Positions 6,719-28,592 of a stretch of DNA of 35,647 nucleotides are shown here, in pieces. The notes beneath the pieces were generated by a model that was not told the origin of the DNA, searched no databases, and saw only the letters and a program-made list of their open reading frames with translations. The position numbers and the translations under genes were made by a program. The stretch is taken from positions 1 through 35,647 of IMG/VR virus record IMGVR_UViG_3300005295_000044. The stretch is one strand, 5' to 3'. Position 1 is the first letter of the stretch. Each line of letters opens with the position of its first letter. Source of the stretch: a virus.

Positions 6719-6906
6719 GCCCGAACAGCATCCTTGGCGGGAATGGGCTTGCCGATTGCCGACTCATAGGCCTGTTCGAGATCGGCCTTGTCCGCATCGA
6801 GGCGGGCCAGTTCCGCATCGATCTCCGCTCTGCGCTTCAGGAGATTGAAACGGTCCTGCTCAACCTGGGTATGAGCGTTGAGAAGTGCGACCTCTGCCCT
6901 GCTCAT
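6715..6906 (-). CDS. Small coiled-coil protein between adaptor and tail hub
   Basis: A 63-residue, highly charged protein predicted to be one continuous helix. Heptad-like spacing of Leu is visible in FNLLKRRAEIDAELARLDAD and the following LEQAYESA. It overlaps both neighbours by 4 bases (ATGA at each end), so translation is coupled to the adaptor and hub genes. No family is recognised. It may be an assembly factor or chaperone for the tail, by position only. Confidence 0.7.
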   Translation of the reverse strand: MSRAEVALLNAHTQVEQDRFNLLKRRAEIDAELARLDADKADLEQAYESAIGKPIPAKDAVRA

Positions 6907-7670
6907 AGGCCATAGCCCCGAATTTTCCCGATGGCGTAGGCGTCAAAGGTCTTGTCCGCGAGCGCCTTGTAGGCGAACGCCTCCATTGCGCAGAGGAACG
7001 ATTCTCCGCGTTGCGCGATAATCGCCATTTCCTGAATGGCGTCTCCGTCCTTTGAATAGTTGATGAGGATGGATGCCTTTGCTCTTGCCCGGATCAGTGC
7101 AGCGCCATCCGTGGTCCAACCATTCGTCCGGTTCTTGTGGCTGGTCGTGGTCGTGACCGTCATGGTGAGAGAGCCGGCGAACACATGCTTGGTGGTCGTG
7201 CTGTCGGTAATCGAGGTCGGGAGGTAACGCTTGGTATACGTCGCCGCGAGCGTGCGTGTTGCGGACGACGGCGGGGCCAAGAGAATAACATTTCCCTCGA
7301 TTGCGTACTTGCTGGGGAGCGCGGTGCTATAGGCGGTCATCGAGGGCGCGAAGTTGATCCGCGACACCTCGTTCAGCGTCACCTTCTCCAGCTCGTGATA
7401 GCGTCCGGTATAGATGATCTCCAGACGCCGCATTTCGATGAAGTCGGGAGGCAGCGAGACGGCGGGGACAAACGCCGTCGCCGTAGCCCATTCGCTGCGA
7501 TAGGCCATATTCCAGCGAAAGGGCTGCGACTCATAGTGGGCTATCGCGTTATTGATCTCGCGATTTACGGCGGTGGCGAACGTCTCGCCCGAATTGCCGA
7601 AAGCATCAGCCAGCGACCGATTTAATTCGGACGCAATCTGCGCTCGCAATGCGTTTGTGTCGTTCGCCAT
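6903..7670 (-). CDS. Head-to-tail adaptor, SU10-type
   Basis: A 255-residue protein. The N-terminal pattern ASELNRSLADAF followed by INNAIAHYESQPFRWN is the hallmark of the phage SU10 adaptor family, whose members sit under the portal ring and connect it to the tail. A beta-rich middle with PPDFIEMRRLEIIY and a helical C-terminus complete the expected layout and length. A GGAG ribosome-binding site stands 8 bases before ATG 7670. It is followed by the small coiled coil and the hub, matching short-tailed phage gene order. Confidence 0.75.
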   Translation of the reverse strand: MANDTNALRAQIASELNRSLADAFGNSGETFATAVNREINNAIAHYESQPFRWNMAYRSEWATATAFVPAVSLPPDFIEMRRLEIIYTGRYHELEKVTLNEVSRINFAPSMTAYSTALPSKYAIEGNVILLAPPSSATRTLAATYTKRYLPTSITDSTTTKHVFAGSLTMTVTTTTSHKNRTNGWTTDGAALIRARAKASILINYSKDGDAIQEMAIIAQRGESFLCAMEAFAYKALADKTFDAYAIGKIRGYGL

Positions 7671-7987: not shown

Positions 7988-8764
7988 TCAAAACTGATTT
8001 CCCTGTTTCCACCGTGGCGCAGGCTCGCGCACAAGCTCGTTGATCGGGTTCTCCGTCTCATCGGGCTCCAGATATGTTGCCCATTCGTGGGCGTGCTCAT
8101 CCCTTGCCCGCGCCGCATAGTCGGGCGTCCCGAGGGTGAAGTGGACCAGCTTTGCGTCAGGATTCGGCTCGTCATAACCAACGAGGTGATTCCATTCTTT
8201 CGGCAGCGCGCCGATTTCCGCATCATTGGTCCAGAGCATCGCGTGGAGGTCGGAGCCCGGCTGATTGTTGACCTTATGGACCGTGAGCTTTTGCGTGCGG
8301 TCGGGATGCATGAGCATCACGCTCGACCAGTTCTTGCGGAAATATCGCGGCTGTTCCATGCCGTCGAATTTCGTCGCTTCTTTGGGCTGATGCTGATGCT
8401 GGACGCACATGACCGACTTGGTGTCATCCCAGGCGTCGAACAACTCGTTAATGTCGGCCCGTAGCAATATGTCGGGATCGGTGAATAGCACGGGATCGTG
8501 AATCCCCATTGCACGGGCCAACTCGGGAACGCAGAAGCGGGAGAACGAGAAATCGGTAGAGAACGGCTTGCCGTCCACTTCATCGATTTTCTGTCCATTG
8601 GGGCGAACCTGATACTGCCGCCAATAGAAGCCTGCCCTGCGAAGTTCATGATCTTTAAGCGGGATGACGAACACCTTGTTCTTCGCATGGCGCTCGTAGG
8701 ACCTGAGCGCGATCTTCAGCGCCAGCTCGTCGCGTGGATCGGCCCCGATAAACCAGTACCTCAT
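7988..8764 (-). CDS. Glycosyltransferase-like protein (GT-A / GT8-like)
   Basis: A 258-residue soluble protein. The N-terminal strand RYWFIGADPRDELALKI and the motif FTDPDILLRAD (residues 94-104) look like the nucleotide-sugar and metal-binding DxD region of GT-A-fold transferases such as family 8. Near residues 212-221, VHFTLGTPDY resembles the conserved C-terminal His-containing strand. It would transfer a sugar from a nucleotide donor, acceptor unknown. It is ATGA-coupled to a membrane peptide and lies in one block with a methyltransferase and a TPR glycosyltransferase, suggesting joint modification of virion or host glycans. Family-level confidence is moderate. Confidence 0.65.
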   Translation of the reverse strand: MRYWFIGADPRDELALKIALRSYERHAKNKVFVIPLKDHELRRAGFYWRQYQVRPNGQKIDEVDGKPFSTDFSFSRFCVPELARAMGIHDPVLFTDPDILLRADINELFDAWDDTKSVMCVQHQHQPKEATKFDGMEQPRYFRKNWSSVMLMHPDRTQKLTVHKVNNQPGSDLHAMLWTNDAEIGALPKEWNHLVGYDEPNPDAKLVHFTLGTPDYAARARDEHAHEWATYLEPDETENPINELVREPAPRWKQGNQF

Positions 8765-8916
8765 GCGCGGCTCTTTCGATTCTGCATGTCGTTGATAAAG
8801 CGCCGCTCATCTCGCCTTAGCTTCCAAAGGCGCAAATTCAGCAATAGCGGCAAGAGTCCGTATGTGACGGACGCACTCAGCGCGATAACGGTTAGAATCT
8901 GCGCGGTGTAACTCAT
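8761..8916 (-). CDS. Small single-span membrane protein
   Basis: A 51-residue protein starting at ATG 8916, overlapping the methyltransferase stop as ATGA. A longer upstream frame is an Arg/His/Gln-rich shadow of the methyltransferase gene. Residues 6-28 (ILTVIALSASVTYGLLPLLL) form one clear membrane span, followed by a strongly basic tail with WKLRRDERRF and RKSR, so the C-terminus should face the cytoplasm. Its stop overlaps the next glycosyltransferase start. It could anchor or localise the sugar-modifying enzymes, which is an inference from the tight coupling. Confidence 0.7.
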   Translation of the reverse strand: MSYTAQILTVIALSASVTYGLLPLLLNLRLWKLRRDERRFINDMQNRKSRA

Positions 8917-9461
8917 GCGCCGTTCTTCTTCTTGGTGTGCGGAATGCCGGTGAACACGAATTCGTCCACGCCCATCTGGCTCACGTTTATGAGCTGCCAC
9001 CGCTGCATCAGCCTGGGCAGCCACCATTCGATGGGTCTCTGGAGGATGTGAGCGTTGCGCCCATCGGCCAGAGTCTTCTCTGCCGGCAGCATGTTGATGG
9101 TCAGGAACACGCCCTTGCGGGCGCAGCGATGAATATCGTCCAGAACGTTCTCGATGCACTCGGGCTCGATGTGCTCAAGGACATCCAGGCTCACCACCAG
9201 ATCAGTCGGGTCCGGTGTCTCATTGAAATCCTCGACCGAGGGATCGTAATTCACCACCATGAGGTGCGAGAGCGCCTTACCCATCGCGCCCTTGCCCGAG
9301 CCGTAATCCAGCATCGCGTGAGCGCCGATCACATGAGCGAACTGCGTGACCGCCGGGTACCACTTCTTGGTGCTGACGCCAGCGCCGTAACTGTCGTTCG
9401 ATTCGTGTAGCGCCGAATTGAGATCGCGGTAGGACTCTGAGATGAGGCCATTAGCCTGCAT
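8913..9461 (-). CDS. Class I SAM-dependent methyltransferase
   Basis: A 182-residue protein with the Rossmann methyltransferase hallmarks: motif I LDYGSGKG (51-58), an acidic residue at the end of strand 2 in NYDP (D73), and motif IV/post-II region VSLDVLEHIEP (90-100). No DNA-base specificity motif (such as DPPY) is present, which argues against an adenine or cytosine DNA methylase. Small-molecule or sugar O-methylation is more likely. The gene starts 11 bases inside the upstream TPR glycosyltransferase and ends overlapping the membrane peptide. The context suggests methylation of a sugar added by the flanking enzymes, which is inferred. Confidence 0.85.
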   Translation of the reverse strand: MQANGLISESYRDLNSALHESNDSYGAGVSTKKWYPAVTQFAHVIGAHAMLDYGSGKGAMGKALSHLMVVNYDPSVEDFNETPDPTDLVVSLDVLEHIEPECIENVLDDIHRCARKGVFLTINMLPAEKTLADGRNAHILQRPIEWWLPRLMQRWQLINVSQMGVDEFVFTGIPHTKKKNGA

Positions 9462-10953
9462 GGGCCACGTCCTTGCTCGTCACGAGGGCATGGAGGAGGG
9501 AGCCCGCTTGCGCGATGACCGGAGTCCAGTCCCTGGAGTCCTTGGGCATCCGCAGCAGCTTGACGCTGGCGTACCAAGGCATTTCATCGCTTTCCACATT
9601 GCCGTAGCGCCATGAGGGTTCGTTGGGGACGAGGCAGATGGTCGGGATACCCAAGGCCCCCGCAATGTGGACCGCCGTCTGACAGACCGTCACAACGGCA
9701 TCCAGCCTGGAAATAAGCGCAACCAGTTCGTCTATGTCCGACAGCTTGCCGGTGTCGGGGTCTTTCTGCTCGACCGCCTTGGGCCAATGCGTGATCCTGA
9801 CGCCCACATGGGATTTCACCTCATCCACGCAATGTTGCGCGGTCGCGTCGTACTGAAGCGAAATCCAGTTCGCATCGATTTGCTTTAAGATGGGCTCGTA
9901 GAGGATCGGATGGAACGAGCGCGCGTCTCCACGCGTCTTGGGAACGCCGCCCTGCCATGCAATGCCGATATTGGGACGCCTGCCGAGGGCGCGTAGTTTC
10001 TCCCCCCACCACTGCCGCTTGGCCTTGCTGGGAACGAGATAGGGCGTTCCCGGAAATGCCTCGTTCGAGCGGCGGAAGAACTTCGGAAGCGAGCCGAGCC
10101 CGATCTTGTAATCCGGCTTCCCCCATTTCTCGATCCACTCAACCCCGTTCGTCTTATCCGTGCCGTGAACCTTCACAGCCGGAAGCGAACGCTCGAATAC
10201 GGTATGGAGCCTGGGTGAGGGCTCGAAGATGAACTCTGTCCCCGGAACCTTGAGAGCATCGGGAATGACAGTGGCGAACATGATCTCATCGCCAATCCCC
10301 TGCTCGCCATGAATGACGATCCGTCCGGGGGACTTGCCATCCCACCAGGGCGTCATGGCATCGGGGCCGTGATAGTTACGCTCCGCGATTTCCTCTTTCG
10401 GCGCGCCGCCGTGTAGGCGCATTTCGTGGTCATCCCATGCGGTATCCCAATTGCGCAGCTCCAAGTTCGCGAGCGCGCGATGCCACTTCGCCTTGGCGTG
10501 ATTGGGATCGAGGGTGAGCGCCATATCGACAAAGGGGAGAACATCCTTGGCCATCCCGCGCGACACTTTGAGCGCGGCCAAGTTGCAATAGATGTCTGCG
10601 AGGTAAGGCCCGGTGATGTATTTCGCGGCCTTCTTCATCGCGAATTCGGCTTTATCGAAGTCTGGGATTTCCTTGAAGGCGAGGCCGAGATTGTTCCACG
10701 CCTCGCCAAACTTCGGGACCATCTGCGTCACTTGTGAGAGCAATTGGATTGCCCTGCCGTAACGCCCGCGTGTGAGATCGATGCAGCCCAACGCAAAGAG
10801 ACATTGCGGATGGCCGATATTGCAGTTCAGCACTTCATGGAAGATGTGTTCGGCCTTCTCCATGTTGCGCTCATGGGGCTGGCCGTCATGCGTCTGCCCC
10901 TCAAGATAGGCAGAGCCCTTCCTGTAATGGTCGGCGGCATCGATATAGATCAT
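9451..10953 (-). CDS. TPR-repeat glycosyltransferase (GT9-like C-terminal domain)
   Basis: I start it at ATG 10953 (MIYIDAADHY), giving 500 residues. The frame is open further upstream, but there it runs antisense-like across the terminator and decoration gene. Residues 30-190 contain TPR-like helical repeats (ALGCIDLTRGRYGRAIQLL, EAWNNLGLAFKE, KAKWHRALANLEL). The second half is a heptosyltransferase-like domain: GEQGIGDEIMFA (216-227) resembles the first Rossmann loop, and AVHIAGALGIPTICLVP (around 427-443) resembles the conserved nucleotide-sugar site. TPR-GT proteins of this kind are usually protein or surface-glycan glycosyltransferases. It is the first gene after a terminator and heads the modification cassette. 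Confidence 0.8.
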   Translation of the reverse strand: MIYIDAADHYRKGSAYLEGQTHDGQPHERNMEKAEHIFHEVLNCNIGHPQCLFALGCIDLTRGRYGRAIQLLSQVTQMVPKFGEAWNNLGLAFKEIPDFDKAEFAMKKAAKYITGPYLADIYCNLAALKVSRGMAKDVLPFVDMALTLDPNHAKAKWHRALANLELRNWDTAWDDHEMRLHGGAPKEEIAERNYHGPDAMTPWWDGKSPGRIVIHGEQGIGDEIMFATVIPDALKVPGTEFIFEPSPRLHTVFERSLPAVKVHGTDKTNGVEWIEKWGKPDYKIGLGSLPKFFRRSNEAFPGTPYLVPSKAKRQWWGEKLRALGRRPNIGIAWQGGVPKTRGDARSFHPILYEPILKQIDANWISLQYDATAQHCVDEVKSHVGVRITHWPKAVEQKDPDTGKLSDIDELVALISRLDAVVTVCQTAVHIAGALGIPTICLVPNEPSWRYGNVESDEMPWYASVKLLRMPKDSRDWTPVIAQAGSLLHALVTSKDVAHAG

Positions 10954-10970: not shown

Positions 10971-10998
10971 AGCGGGGAGGCCCGAAGGCTTCCCCGCT
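10971..10998 (-). terminator. Hairpin terminator after the decoration-protein gene
   Basis: Read leftward, a 12-bp GC-rich stem (AGCGGGGAAGCC with GGCCTCCCCGCT, one A-C mismatch) closes on a TTCG tetraloop flanked by C and G and is followed by TTCTTCC. It starts 8 bases past the stop at 11006 and ends before the TPR glycosyltransferase start. It probably ends or attenuates the high-level head-gene transcript. The pyrimidine run is short on T, so it may be partial. Confidence 0.6.
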
Positions 10999-11005
10999 CT
11001 CAACA

Positions 11006-11539
11006 TCAACGGATCGTCGTGCGGCCGGCCATGCCGTCGCAGACGTAGAGGAACATGAAGGTGAAGAATGCCGAGGCCGAGCAGGCCACGCCCATCGTTG
11101 CCTGGATGGCAACGTTCGACGGGGACACATCGTCCGAAAGCGAAATCTTCGCCGGCATGAGATTGGTGACGCCGGTTGCAAGTCCGGTAGTGCCACCGCC
11201 GCCCCTGAAGACGCCTTGGTTGAAGATGCCGTAAGCGGTCGGCACTACGAGCTGCCCAGACAACGAGGTGGAATAGCTCTGTGACAACGTGGTCACGGAC
11301 ATGATGCCTGATCGGGTGAACGAGGTCCCCATCTGCATCGTCTGATCCGCGCCGCCGGTCTGCACGCGGCCCCAGAAATCGATGATGGTGCTTTTGTTGG
11401 GCACCTTCACGATTGAGAGGACCGTGGACGGGCAAACGGTCGTACAGACCGTGAGATGCCCGCCGTTGGCGGCGACTCCCGCGTGTAGATACTTCACACC
11501 CGGAGAGAACTGGCTGAAAGTCAGTGTTGCGCTTGCCAT
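11006..11539 (-). CDS. Probable capsid decoration / head structural protein
   Basis: A 177-residue, beta-rich, Thr/Ser/Gly-rich protein. The pattern VPNKSTIIDFWGRVQTGGADQTMQMG is shared by small structural proteins that follow the major capsid gene in many phages. No membrane segment or signal is seen, although the C-terminal region is rather hydrophobic (ASAFFTFMFLYVCDG). A GGAGAACTG site precedes ATG 11539. It lies 13 bases after the capsid gene and before a strong terminator, as expected of a protein made in large amounts with the capsid. Confidence 0.65.
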   Translation of the reverse strand: MASATLTFSQFSPGVKYLHAGVAANGGHLTVCTTVCPSTVLSIVKVPNKSTIIDFWGRVQTGGADQTMQMGTSFTRSGIMSVTTLSQSYSTSLSGQLVVPTAYGIFNQGVFRGGGGTTGLATGVTNLMPAKISLSDDVSPSNVAIQATMGVACSASAFFTFMFLYVCDGMAGRTTIR

Positions 11540-26470: not shown

Positions 26471-26895
26471 GTCGTTTCTCCTTCGGTTGATACCCGTGCG
26501 GGCGCACGGCTAGAGGGCCGGATTTCAACCCGAGCCCCGATTACACCGCCCCATTCAGCGGTGACTTTGCGGACGGTCTTATTGGTATCGCCGTCAATGA
26601 TTCCGTTCTGTACTAAGCAGTCGATGACGCACTTGATCCGGTTGTCTATGTCGCCGCGCGACTCCTGAACCGTGATGGTGATATCTACCGGCCCGACCGA
26701 TACGCGGGGACGCTGCGCCATAAGCATCAATGCAGCTTCTTTCTTCCACGCCCTGTACTCGGCAGAGGGAAACCGCCCGTGCGTCTTGGGATTGTTCACG
26801 AACAGATTGTTCACGCTCAGCGGCTTCGGCAAATCAACGCTGAACGTGCCGTTCGCAATCCGTCTGCGCTCTACTGTGGCGGGGTTGAGTTTCAT
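26467..26895 (-). CDS. rusA: RusA-family Holliday-junction resolvase
   Basis: A 142-residue endonuclease that would resolve branched DNA before packaging. The N-terminal LPKPLSVNNLFVNN matches the RusA start pattern. The catalytic acids appear as GDIDNRIK (D82, D84, with the Lys at 88) followed by IIDGDTN (D101, D103), the same spacing logic as the D70/D72/D91 cluster and Lys of E. coli RusA. It is ATGA-coupled to the DnaA-domain gene upstream and to the 136-residue gene downstream. Confidence 0.88.
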   Translation of the reverse strand: MKLNPATVERRRIANGTFSVDLPKPLSVNNLFVNNPKTHGRFPSAEYRAWKKEAALMLMAQRPRVSVGPVDITITVQESRGDIDNRIKCVIDCLVQNGIIDGDTNKTVRKVTAEWGGVIGARVEIRPSSRAPARVSTEGETT

Positions 26896-27254
26896 GCAGC
26901 GTCCCTAAACACGCTCGCCGCCCACTCGGTCGGCTGCATCCAACTGCACTCATCCGCGCTATAGGAGAGTGCCCACTTGATGTTGCAGTAATCTTCGTCA
27001 ATCAGCGGATCGGTTTTCCGAAGCTCATCTATGCGCCGGCAGGCGTGAAGCACCGTCGTATGATCTCGGTTGCCGTAGACCTTGCCGATATAGGGGAGGG
27101 ATCGGGTTGTCAGTTCACGACACAGAGCCATTGCGATCTGACGTGGCCGCGCGAGCCGACGGCATCGCCGCGAGCTTTCTATCTCCGACTTTGAAATCCC
27201 GAAGTGACGACACACAGCCCATTTGATGCCGTGCGTTGTCGTGTGCGTCCGCAT
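26892..27254 (-). CDS. Stand-alone DnaA domain IV (DnaA-box binding) protein
   Basis: A 120-residue protein consisting almost only of the DnaA C-terminal DNA-binding domain: SKSEIESSRRCRRLARPRQ (21-39), AMALCRELTTRSLP, and the DnaA signature GNRDHTTVLHACRRI (61-75), compared with GGRDHTTVLHACRKI in E. coli DnaA. There is no AAA+ ATPase. It could bind DnaA boxes on phage or host DNA, either to attract host DnaA functions or to block host initiation. Strong GGGGAG site 4 bases before ATG 27254. A long hairpin lies in the leader. Confidence 0.88.
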   Translation of the reverse strand: MRTHTTTHGIKWAVCRHFGISKSEIESSRRCRRLARPRQIAMALCRELTTRSLPYIGKVYGNRDHTTVLHACRRIDELRKTDPLIDEDYCNIKWALSYSADECSWMQPTEWAASVFRDAA

Positions 27255-27402: not shown

Positions 27403-28140
27403 TCAAAACACCCAGATTGATTTGTCGGCCAGTTCTATGGCCACTTCCTCGTTTACGAGGCGGTCATTCCAAATCTTTTGGAGCGCGAGGCCGAGCGCTT
27501 CCGACGATACGGTCCCGACCTTCCAAGCGAGCCTGACGCCATCAGGATCGCGGAGAGCTACCGCATAAGCCTCGTTCTCTGTCACGCCCACATCGCGCGC
27601 CATCCAACAAGCGACAGCGGCGGTGAGGAACCACGCTTTCATGCCCGTATTGTTTCGGCACAGGTTGATTACCTGGGACAAATGCGGATGGCGCGGCCCA
27701 TTCACCCACTGTCTCACGGCCACATCGCTCACACCGCTTTCACGCGCTGCTTGGCGAGCCCATCCGGGCTCTGTGCCGTAAACCGCCTTTATTGCCTCAC
27801 AGAATGACTCGGTGAGAAACTTCACCATCCGCTCATCAAGAAACTCATCTTTGGTGGTAGTGGGCGGAGGTAGTGTGGCGAGGGCGAATGCTCCCTGCTT
27901 TACGCTTTCGATAACGCGGAGCACTTCATCATGCGGAGAGAACCATTCACCGCTTAGGCGGTGGGCCGCGAGCTGCTTGTGCAAATGCCGCTCAACATCG
28001 CTGCCGCCATCATAAACCGCGAGAAGTTCAAGCCTCTCAGCAACGCCGGTCTGTAGGGCGTTAATACGATCCTGAACTCGGCGGCTTTTACCGATCTTAA
28101 TCGGGCCACCTTCGCCTCGCTGAAGGAAATAGATTTGCAT
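27403..28140 (-). CDS. GIY-YIG-like (T5orf172/Mug113) nuclease domain fused to an HTH region
   Basis: From ATG 28140, which overlaps the upstream stop (TGATG), 245 residues. Residues 1-70 show the T5orf172/Mug113 branch of the GIY-YIG fold: IYFLQRG (3-9), IKIGKS (14-19), RINALQTG (25-32), then HLHKQLAAHRLSGEWF (52-67). Residues 130-165 (ARQAARESGVSDVAVRQWVNG) look like a helix-turn-helix of Cro/YdaS type, so this may be a DNA-binding protein that also nicks DNA, or a regulator. The C-terminus is unassigned. It lies between an HTH gene and the DnaA-domain gene. Confidence 0.75.
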   Translation of the reverse strand: MQIYFLQRGEGGPIKIGKSRRVQDRINALQTGVAERLELLAVYDGGSDVERHLHKQLAAHRLSGEWFSPHDEVLRVIESVKQGAFALATLPPPTTTKDEFLDERMVKFLTESFCEAIKAVYGTEPGWARQAARESGVSDVAVRQWVNGPRHPHLSQVINLCRNNTGMKAWFLTAAVACWMARDVGVTENEAYAVALRDPDGVRLAWKVGTVSSEALGLALQKIWNDRLVNEEVAIELADKSIWVF

Positions 28141-28592
28141 CAGTGCCCCACGCCAATCTCGCGGAGCCACGCGCGGGCGTACTGTCCCTCTTGGTCCTCT
28201 TGCAGCGACTTGCGCCTAAGAACTTGCAATAGCCGCTCATCGCGATTGTAGAACCGCCCAAGGTCCGCTTCCTCAGCGAGGAGAAGCCCGACCTCATCAA
28301 ACACCTTGGCCATCGCGAGCGTGTAGGATGTATTTGCTGCGCGCCGACCAAGCTTCCAGCTCTGCGCCGTGTCCTTTGTGCATTCGACAGCGCGCGCAAT
28401 GTCGCCCTCGGAGTAACCCGAGAGAGCGTCAGCGATTTGATCCGCAACGTATTTCTGCGAGGGGCGAGCGAATTCTGTACGCGGTACGGATTGTGTACGC
28501 CTTACTCCGTTTGAAGCTGTAGCTTGAGCGCGGCTATCTCCCCGTCGTGAATTGGAACGATGCTGGAGAGCGCGAGATGCGTAGGCCATCAC
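28140..28592 (-). CDS. HTH regulator
   Basis: A 150-residue protein. Residues 1-47 are basic and disordered. A central helix-turn-helix follows (LSGYSEGDIARAVECTKDTA then QSWKLGRRAANTSYTL) and then an acidic helix with GLLLAEEADLGRF. It resembles phage repressor- or excision-type DNA-binding proteins. The gene overlaps the mini-protein upstream and the GIY-YIG gene downstream by one to four bases. Three GTAC sites fall within its own 5' coding DNA (28477-28498) and recur upstream of the rightward gene at 29312, making it a candidate binder of those sites. Confidence 0.7.
   Translation of the reverse strand: MMAYASRALQHRSNSRRGDSRAQATASNGVRRTQSVPRTEFARPSQKYVADQIADALSGYSEGDIARAVECTKDTAQSWKLGRRAANTSYTLAMAKVFDEVGLLLAEEADLGRFYNRDERLLQVLRRKSLQEDQEGQYARAWLREIGVGH

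Follow-up and report, generated by a model that had tools for sequence, protein, structure and literature searches.

A glycosyltransferase cassette beside the capsid genes of uncultured short-tailed phages is a candidate module for glycosylating the virion surface

Introduction

Two predicted glycosyltransferases and a methyltransferase lie in the middle of the structural genes of a phage, which raises the question of what they modify: the virion itself, the surface of the host, or the phage DNA. The window analysed here, a whole viral record of 35,647 bases, comes from an uncultured short-tailed phage. Domain profiles identify in it a Phage_capsid_3 major capsid protein, a P22-type portal and an SU10-type adaptor, and the major capsid profile matches the solved capsids 8h89 (1.4e-76) and 7eel. 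A direct nucleotide search with the window against a phage collection returned 0 matches. We propose that the cassette is probably a late cytoplasmic O-glycosylation module for the phage's own capsid surface, with the cement protein as its most likely substrate.

Results

The cassette and its borders

All four cassette ORFs lie on the minus strand, where the order is major capsid gene, p177, a stem-loop, a glycosyltransferase with tetratricopeptide repeats (TPR-GT), a class I methyltransferase (MT), a 51-aa peptide, a GT8-like glycosyltransferase and the adaptor gene (Table 1). A preliminary description of this DNA had named these four ORFs and set them inside the structural block, and the ORFs, profiles and models bear out both their identities and their coordinates. 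It had also called them translationally coupled; each frame runs into the next, by 11, 4 and 4 bases in turn (ATGA type), and coupling is therefore plausible.

Table 1. Positions of the cassette genes and of the flanking features in the window
Feature	Coordinates	Strand	Evidence
Major capsid protein, Phage_capsid_3, 369 aa	11553..12662	-	Pfam PF13252 5e-61; PHROG 334 3e-77
p177, putative capsid cement (decoration) protein, S/T-rich, proposed acceptor	11006..11539	-	7eel_H match
Stem-loop, attenuator/terminator-like, between cement gene and cassette	10971..10998	-	-29.6 kcal/mol, z -4.0
TPR-GT, 500 aa	9451..10953	-	AF2 model and fold matches
Class I SAM methyltransferase (MT), 182 aa	8913..9461	-	Pfam Methyltransf_23, PHROG 24759
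51-aa peptide, single hydrophobic stretch	8761..8916	-	ORF with ATGA overlaps
GT8/GT24-like glycosyltransferase, 258 aa	7988..8764	-	AF2 model; PHROG 28018
SU10-type tail adaptor, downstream border of the cassette	6903..7670	-	Pfam SU10_adaptor 3.4e-9

As the preliminary description had it, the cassette sits behind a terminator-like element: a strong stem-loop with a weak U tract separates p177 from the TPR-GT gene. Among 85 relatives, 63 have a similar stem-loop behind the cement gene; in control stretches taken after the adaptor gene the figure is 7 of 104. Because 18 of 26 cassette-less relatives carry one as well, the stem-loop goes with the cement gene rather than with the cassette, and we rejected it as a mark of the latter. 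The membrane peptide was likewise rejected as a conserved part of the cassette: although it had been listed as a member of the set, it is missing in three relatives (L008, L009 and L016), in which the MT and GT8 genes abut.

Elsewhere on the minus strand of the window, positions 26895-27254 encode a 120-aa protein with a DnaA C-terminal DNA-binding domain (Pfam 3.7e-28), and genes for a RusA resolvase and a replisome-organiser-like protein lie close by; positions 27406-28170 encode a MUG113/T5orf172 domain fused to a helix-turn-helix.

Predicted activities of the three enzymes

Structure prediction of both transferases, a check proposed in advance, returned glycosyltransferase folds. In the AF2 model of TPR-GT (pLDDT 88), a predicted TPR superhelix (helices at about residues 6-172) is joined to a GT-B domain (about residues 205-499), and the protein carries the motif GEQGIGDE. 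Full-length SPINDLY and OGT take its top Foldseek ranks, and structural alignment points to a GT9 fold (Z 19.1 to 3tov, rmsd 3.1, 264 aligned), the GT-B domain giving Z 17.8 to 1psw and Z 16.7 to TibC. For the second transferase, the model (pLDDT 87) shows a GT-A fold like that of GT8/GT24 enzymes, aligning with 3tzt (rmsd 2.6, 187 aligned) and with LgtC (1g9r), both at Z 16.9. It has a DxD motif at D96/D98, both invariant among homologues, and a KNWSS motif, and it matches PHROG 28018 (3.6e-54); its Pfam GT8 match (E 0.0079) falls short of the cut-off of that family.

The MT matches Pfam Methyltransf_23 above cut-off (4.9e-7) and PHROG 24759 (7e-22), and contains the motifs LDYGSGKG (glycine-rich motif I), DVLEHIEP and DGRNAH. 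A search of the protein for DNA-methyltransferase motif IV, [DNS]PP[YFW], found none (no DPPY), in agreement with what had been noted before, and its profile gave 0 matches against the PDB. By its motifs, the MT is predicted to be a class I enzyme of the small-molecule type that does not act on DNA.

These features bear on whether the transferases could act on phage DNA and produce hypermodified bases. Many phage glycosyltransferases do modify DNA, according to a paper known through its citation in PMC12619734. Here, however, the scanned window ORFs contained no domain of a base hydroxylase, a thymidylate-synthase-like enzyme or a kinase; together with the MT motifs, the fusion of one glycosyltransferase to TPRs and the location of the cassette genes within the virion block, this makes a DNA target very improbable.

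The cassette is a regular feature of this phage group

Relatives of TPR-GT occur on at least 564 viral contigs and relatives of the GT8-like enzyme on at least 590. In the TPR-GT set the dominant order, seen on scores of viral contigs, is capsid, p177, TPR-GT, MT, GT8 and adaptor. Of 107 informative loci in this phage group, 78 carry the cassette; when only the capsid protein was used to find loci, 33 of 62 did. GT8 lay downstream of the capsid gene in 62 and MT in 63 of the 78 cassette loci, and neither did so in any of the 29 others; the cassette-less slot holds the small post-capsid gene alone, sometimes with one more small gene. Contrary to the preliminary description, which had called the arrangement unusual, this position is the rule in the group and no oddity.

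The GT8 family often occurs apart from TPR-GT: among 54 loci, an MT was nearby in 23 and a TPR-GT in 3. In Caulobacter giant phages (e.g. CcrColossus), GT8, MT and an annotated family 9 glycosyltransferase follow the tail genes. Pelagibacter phage Mosig (L005 5937-11771) carries a GT8 homologue by its nrd genes, not its capsid genes, in a cluster that also holds two methyltransferases, a further glycosyltransferase and an enzyme annotated as a sulfotransferase.

Comparable placements are seen in two further phages. In Tetraselmis viridis virus S20 (L347 4700-10300), glycosyltransferases, two of them with a sialyltransferase annotation, lie together with an MT homologue between the head genes and the head-closure gene; S20 also has a tail-terminator gene, and its head-protease and head-closure genes point to another phage lineage, so that its glycan block is a possible case of convergence in position. 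In Roseobacter phage CRP-9 (L348 4863-6528), an MT homologue comes right after the coat gene, with no annotated glycosyltransferases nearby. Given the similar placement in S20 and CRP-9, glycan blocks beside the capsid gene may have multiple independent origins.

The cement protein is the best acceptor candidate

When the p177 family profile was compared with the whole PDB sequence set, the sole match under E 1 was a weak one (E 0.0013) to 7eel_H, 'Cement (decoration) proteins', covering most of the length of p177. The same PDB entry, 7eel, holds the capsid protein that matches the one in the window. In phage GP4, the cement protein is found as trimers on the outside of the capsid (PMC9698820).

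A p177-type post-capsid protein is found in 76 of the 78 cassette loci, and nearly all cassette-less loci have another type. Out of sample, that is, in loci left out of the building of the p177 profile (L341 being read by its own ORF), the p177 type was present in 21 of 21 cassette loci versus 1 of 17 cassette-less ones; one cassette-less locus, L310, also matches the p177 type, though weakly. On the capsid tree, cassette and cement type show 7 changes, with just 2 supported independent pairs; the association is thus strong by count but confounded by ancestry. Co-evolution of TPR and p177 was not significant in a partial Mantel analysis (partial r 0.09-0.14, p 0.07-0.20).

Serine and threonine make up 21% of p177-type proteins versus 17% of the other post-capsid type, and profile comparison of the two cement types gives a homology probability of 5-10%. 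An N-terminal TxTx[ST] pattern is common to p177-type proteins and is suggestive of a conserved acceptor site. On the evidence of this section as a whole, p177 is the best candidate for the acceptor.

Another virion protein (major capsid, adaptor, nozzle or tail fibre) could be the target instead, as a sub-case of virion glycosylation. The adaptor gene also borders the cassette, the homologous GT8/MT pair of the Caulobacter giant phages follows tail genes, and mycobacteriophages modify both capsid and tail tube (PMC11600133). This is rather unlikely, however: the cassette tracks the type of post-capsid protein, and adaptor and capsid are common to the cassette-less relatives.

Bacterial homologues adjoin genes for filament subunits

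In a GT-domain tree, the phage rows cluster together with five rows from genome records. Four of the five appear to be prophages or phage contigs: L203 and L227, inside the phage clade, have a capsid gene and an adaptor gene, while L219 and L220 have terminase and adaptor or nozzle genes. Also in this half of the tree are bacterial clusters from Betaproteobacteria and Methylococcus with several TPR-GTs each. Of these 22 loci, 15 have GT8, 9 have MT and 14 have a type IV pilin gene; among 57 other bacterial TPR-GT loci, 2 have such a pilin gene. This contrast is descriptive, as the split of 22 and 57 is our own grouping from the tree and the record titles. Three of the genomes concerned have 1, 2 and 3 major pilin genes, of which 1, 2 and 2 adjoin TPR-GTs.

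Within these taxa, the records L193-L214 and L225 hold several TPR-GTs together with GT41, GT8 and MT next to genes for type IV pilins, in what by gene content looks like a cytoplasmic pilin glycosylation locus; our search of the open-licence literature found no description of one. Closest to the phage clade among the bacterial rows are L207 and L232, from two Caulobacteraceae genomes; these adjoin yidC, with no filament gene in their neighbourhoods.

A 596-aa TPR-GT next to flagellin genes in a Phenylobacterium genome (L272) sits on a different and more distant branch, grouping with other bacterial rows in the opposite half of the tree from the phage clade. Its length and domain architecture agree with those published for Caulobacter FlmG (PMC7591256), and we take it for an FlmG by its length and neighbours. 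TPR-GT aligns with it over 481 aa, across both domains (27% identity, E 2e-37). Flagellin glycosylation by FlmG takes place in the cytoplasm, and the TPR domain of the enzyme binds the flagellin (PMC7591256). In its AF2 model and fold matches, TPR-GT shows the FlmG-type order of a TPR domain followed by a GT-B domain; by sequence, it appears to be of the same broad family as the FlmG-type TPR O-glycosyltransferases, and is not FlmG itself.

Such neighbours also bear on the proposal that the cassette alters the host surface (LPS or capsule), which would block superinfection or the loss of progeny to receptors on debris. GT8 and GT9 folds do occur in LPS enzymes, among them LgtC and the heptosyltransferases WaaC/WaaF; cyanophage glycosyltransferase clusters have been interpreted as modifying capsular polysaccharide (PMC7824862); and GT8 with MT is found outside capsid blocks, as by the nrd genes of Mosig and after the tail genes of CcrColossus. 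Yet the cassette is fixed in position by the capsid and cement genes, a TPR fusion is typical of protein-targeting transferases, the bacterial homologues adjoin pilin and flagellin genes, and no glycan-lipid partner (flippase or lipid-linked glycosyltransferase) was found in the cassette. The preliminary description had left virion and host surface side by side as targets, with evasion of host receptors or defence as a possible purpose. Two predicted glycosyltransferases and a non-DNA methyltransferase are indeed there, and we favour glycosylation of the virion because of the fixed place by the capsid and cement genes, the link to one cement type and the filament-subunit neighbours of the homologues; a host-surface role is unlikely.

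Discussion

In the scheme that we infer for virion glycosylation, from late expression, acceptor and sugar donors to the order of steps and the benefit, the late genes would be switched on and the stem-loop might limit transcription into the cassette, keeping the enzymes below the levels of capsid and cement protein. The TPR superhelix would then dock a freshly made head protein, for which the product of the cement gene immediately upstream is the likeliest candidate, and the GT9-type GT-B domain would place the first sugar on a serine or threonine. The GT8-type enzyme would extend the glycan by a further sugar, which the MT would cap through O-methylation.

As for origin, a tentative possibility is that phages took up a bacterial operon for the glycosylation of filament subunits, made up of TPR-GT, GT8 and MT as in the pilin-linked clusters, fixed it by the cement gene and retargeted the TPR domain to the capsid, away from pilin or flagellin; the family would then glycosylate a polymer subunit encoded by a neighbouring gene. 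Our search of open-licence papers turned up neither a description of a TPR-GT cassette with a set place by a capsid cement gene nor a report of kinship between such a cassette and pilin-linked bacterial clusters.

If the proposal is true, glycosylated, methyl-capped capsids occur in a large uncultured group of short-tailed phages (TPR-GT relatives are encoded on at least 564 viral contigs), virion glycosylation reaches well past the mycobacteriophages, and PHROG families now of unknown function gain one. The proposal names an enzyme, a likely acceptor and a likely bacterial source.

Virion glycosylation as such is already known from mycobacteriophages, and the TPR-GT cassette is a new enzyme version of it; we know of no TPR-GT in the mycobacteriophage systems. 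Those systems, with a linked O-methyltransferase gene, were described by Freeman et al. 2023, as relayed in PMC11600133 and PMC10877033. By these accounts they resemble the cassette in their phage-encoded glycosyltransferases and O-methyltransferase gene, with virion proteins as the reported targets. Their hosts are actinobacteria, and the comparison with them is one of gene descriptions.

Among protein-modifying enzymes, OGT and SPINDLY join TPRs to a GT-B domain and act on proteins, as TPR-GT is predicted to do, and TibC is a protein O-heptosyltransferase of the GT9 fold, the type to which the TPR-GT domain is assigned; full-length or domain matches of TPR-GT to these three give Z 16-18. Identity with them is 11-16%, however, and OGT belongs to family GT41, whereas the TPR-GT domain is nearer GT9. 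FlmG shares the N-terminal TPR and C-terminal GT-B domains, and the 596-aa flagellin-adjacent relative shares the GEQGxGDE motif with TPR-GT; the phage clade, in contrast, lies elsewhere in the tree and adjoins capsid genes, with GT8 and MT as partners and an activity that is predicted. The bacterial pilin clusters differ in their several TPR-GT copies, their frequent GT41 and a pilin in the place of the capsid, and their function is putative, but they bring together homologues of the three cassette enzymes beside the gene for a polymerising surface subunit.
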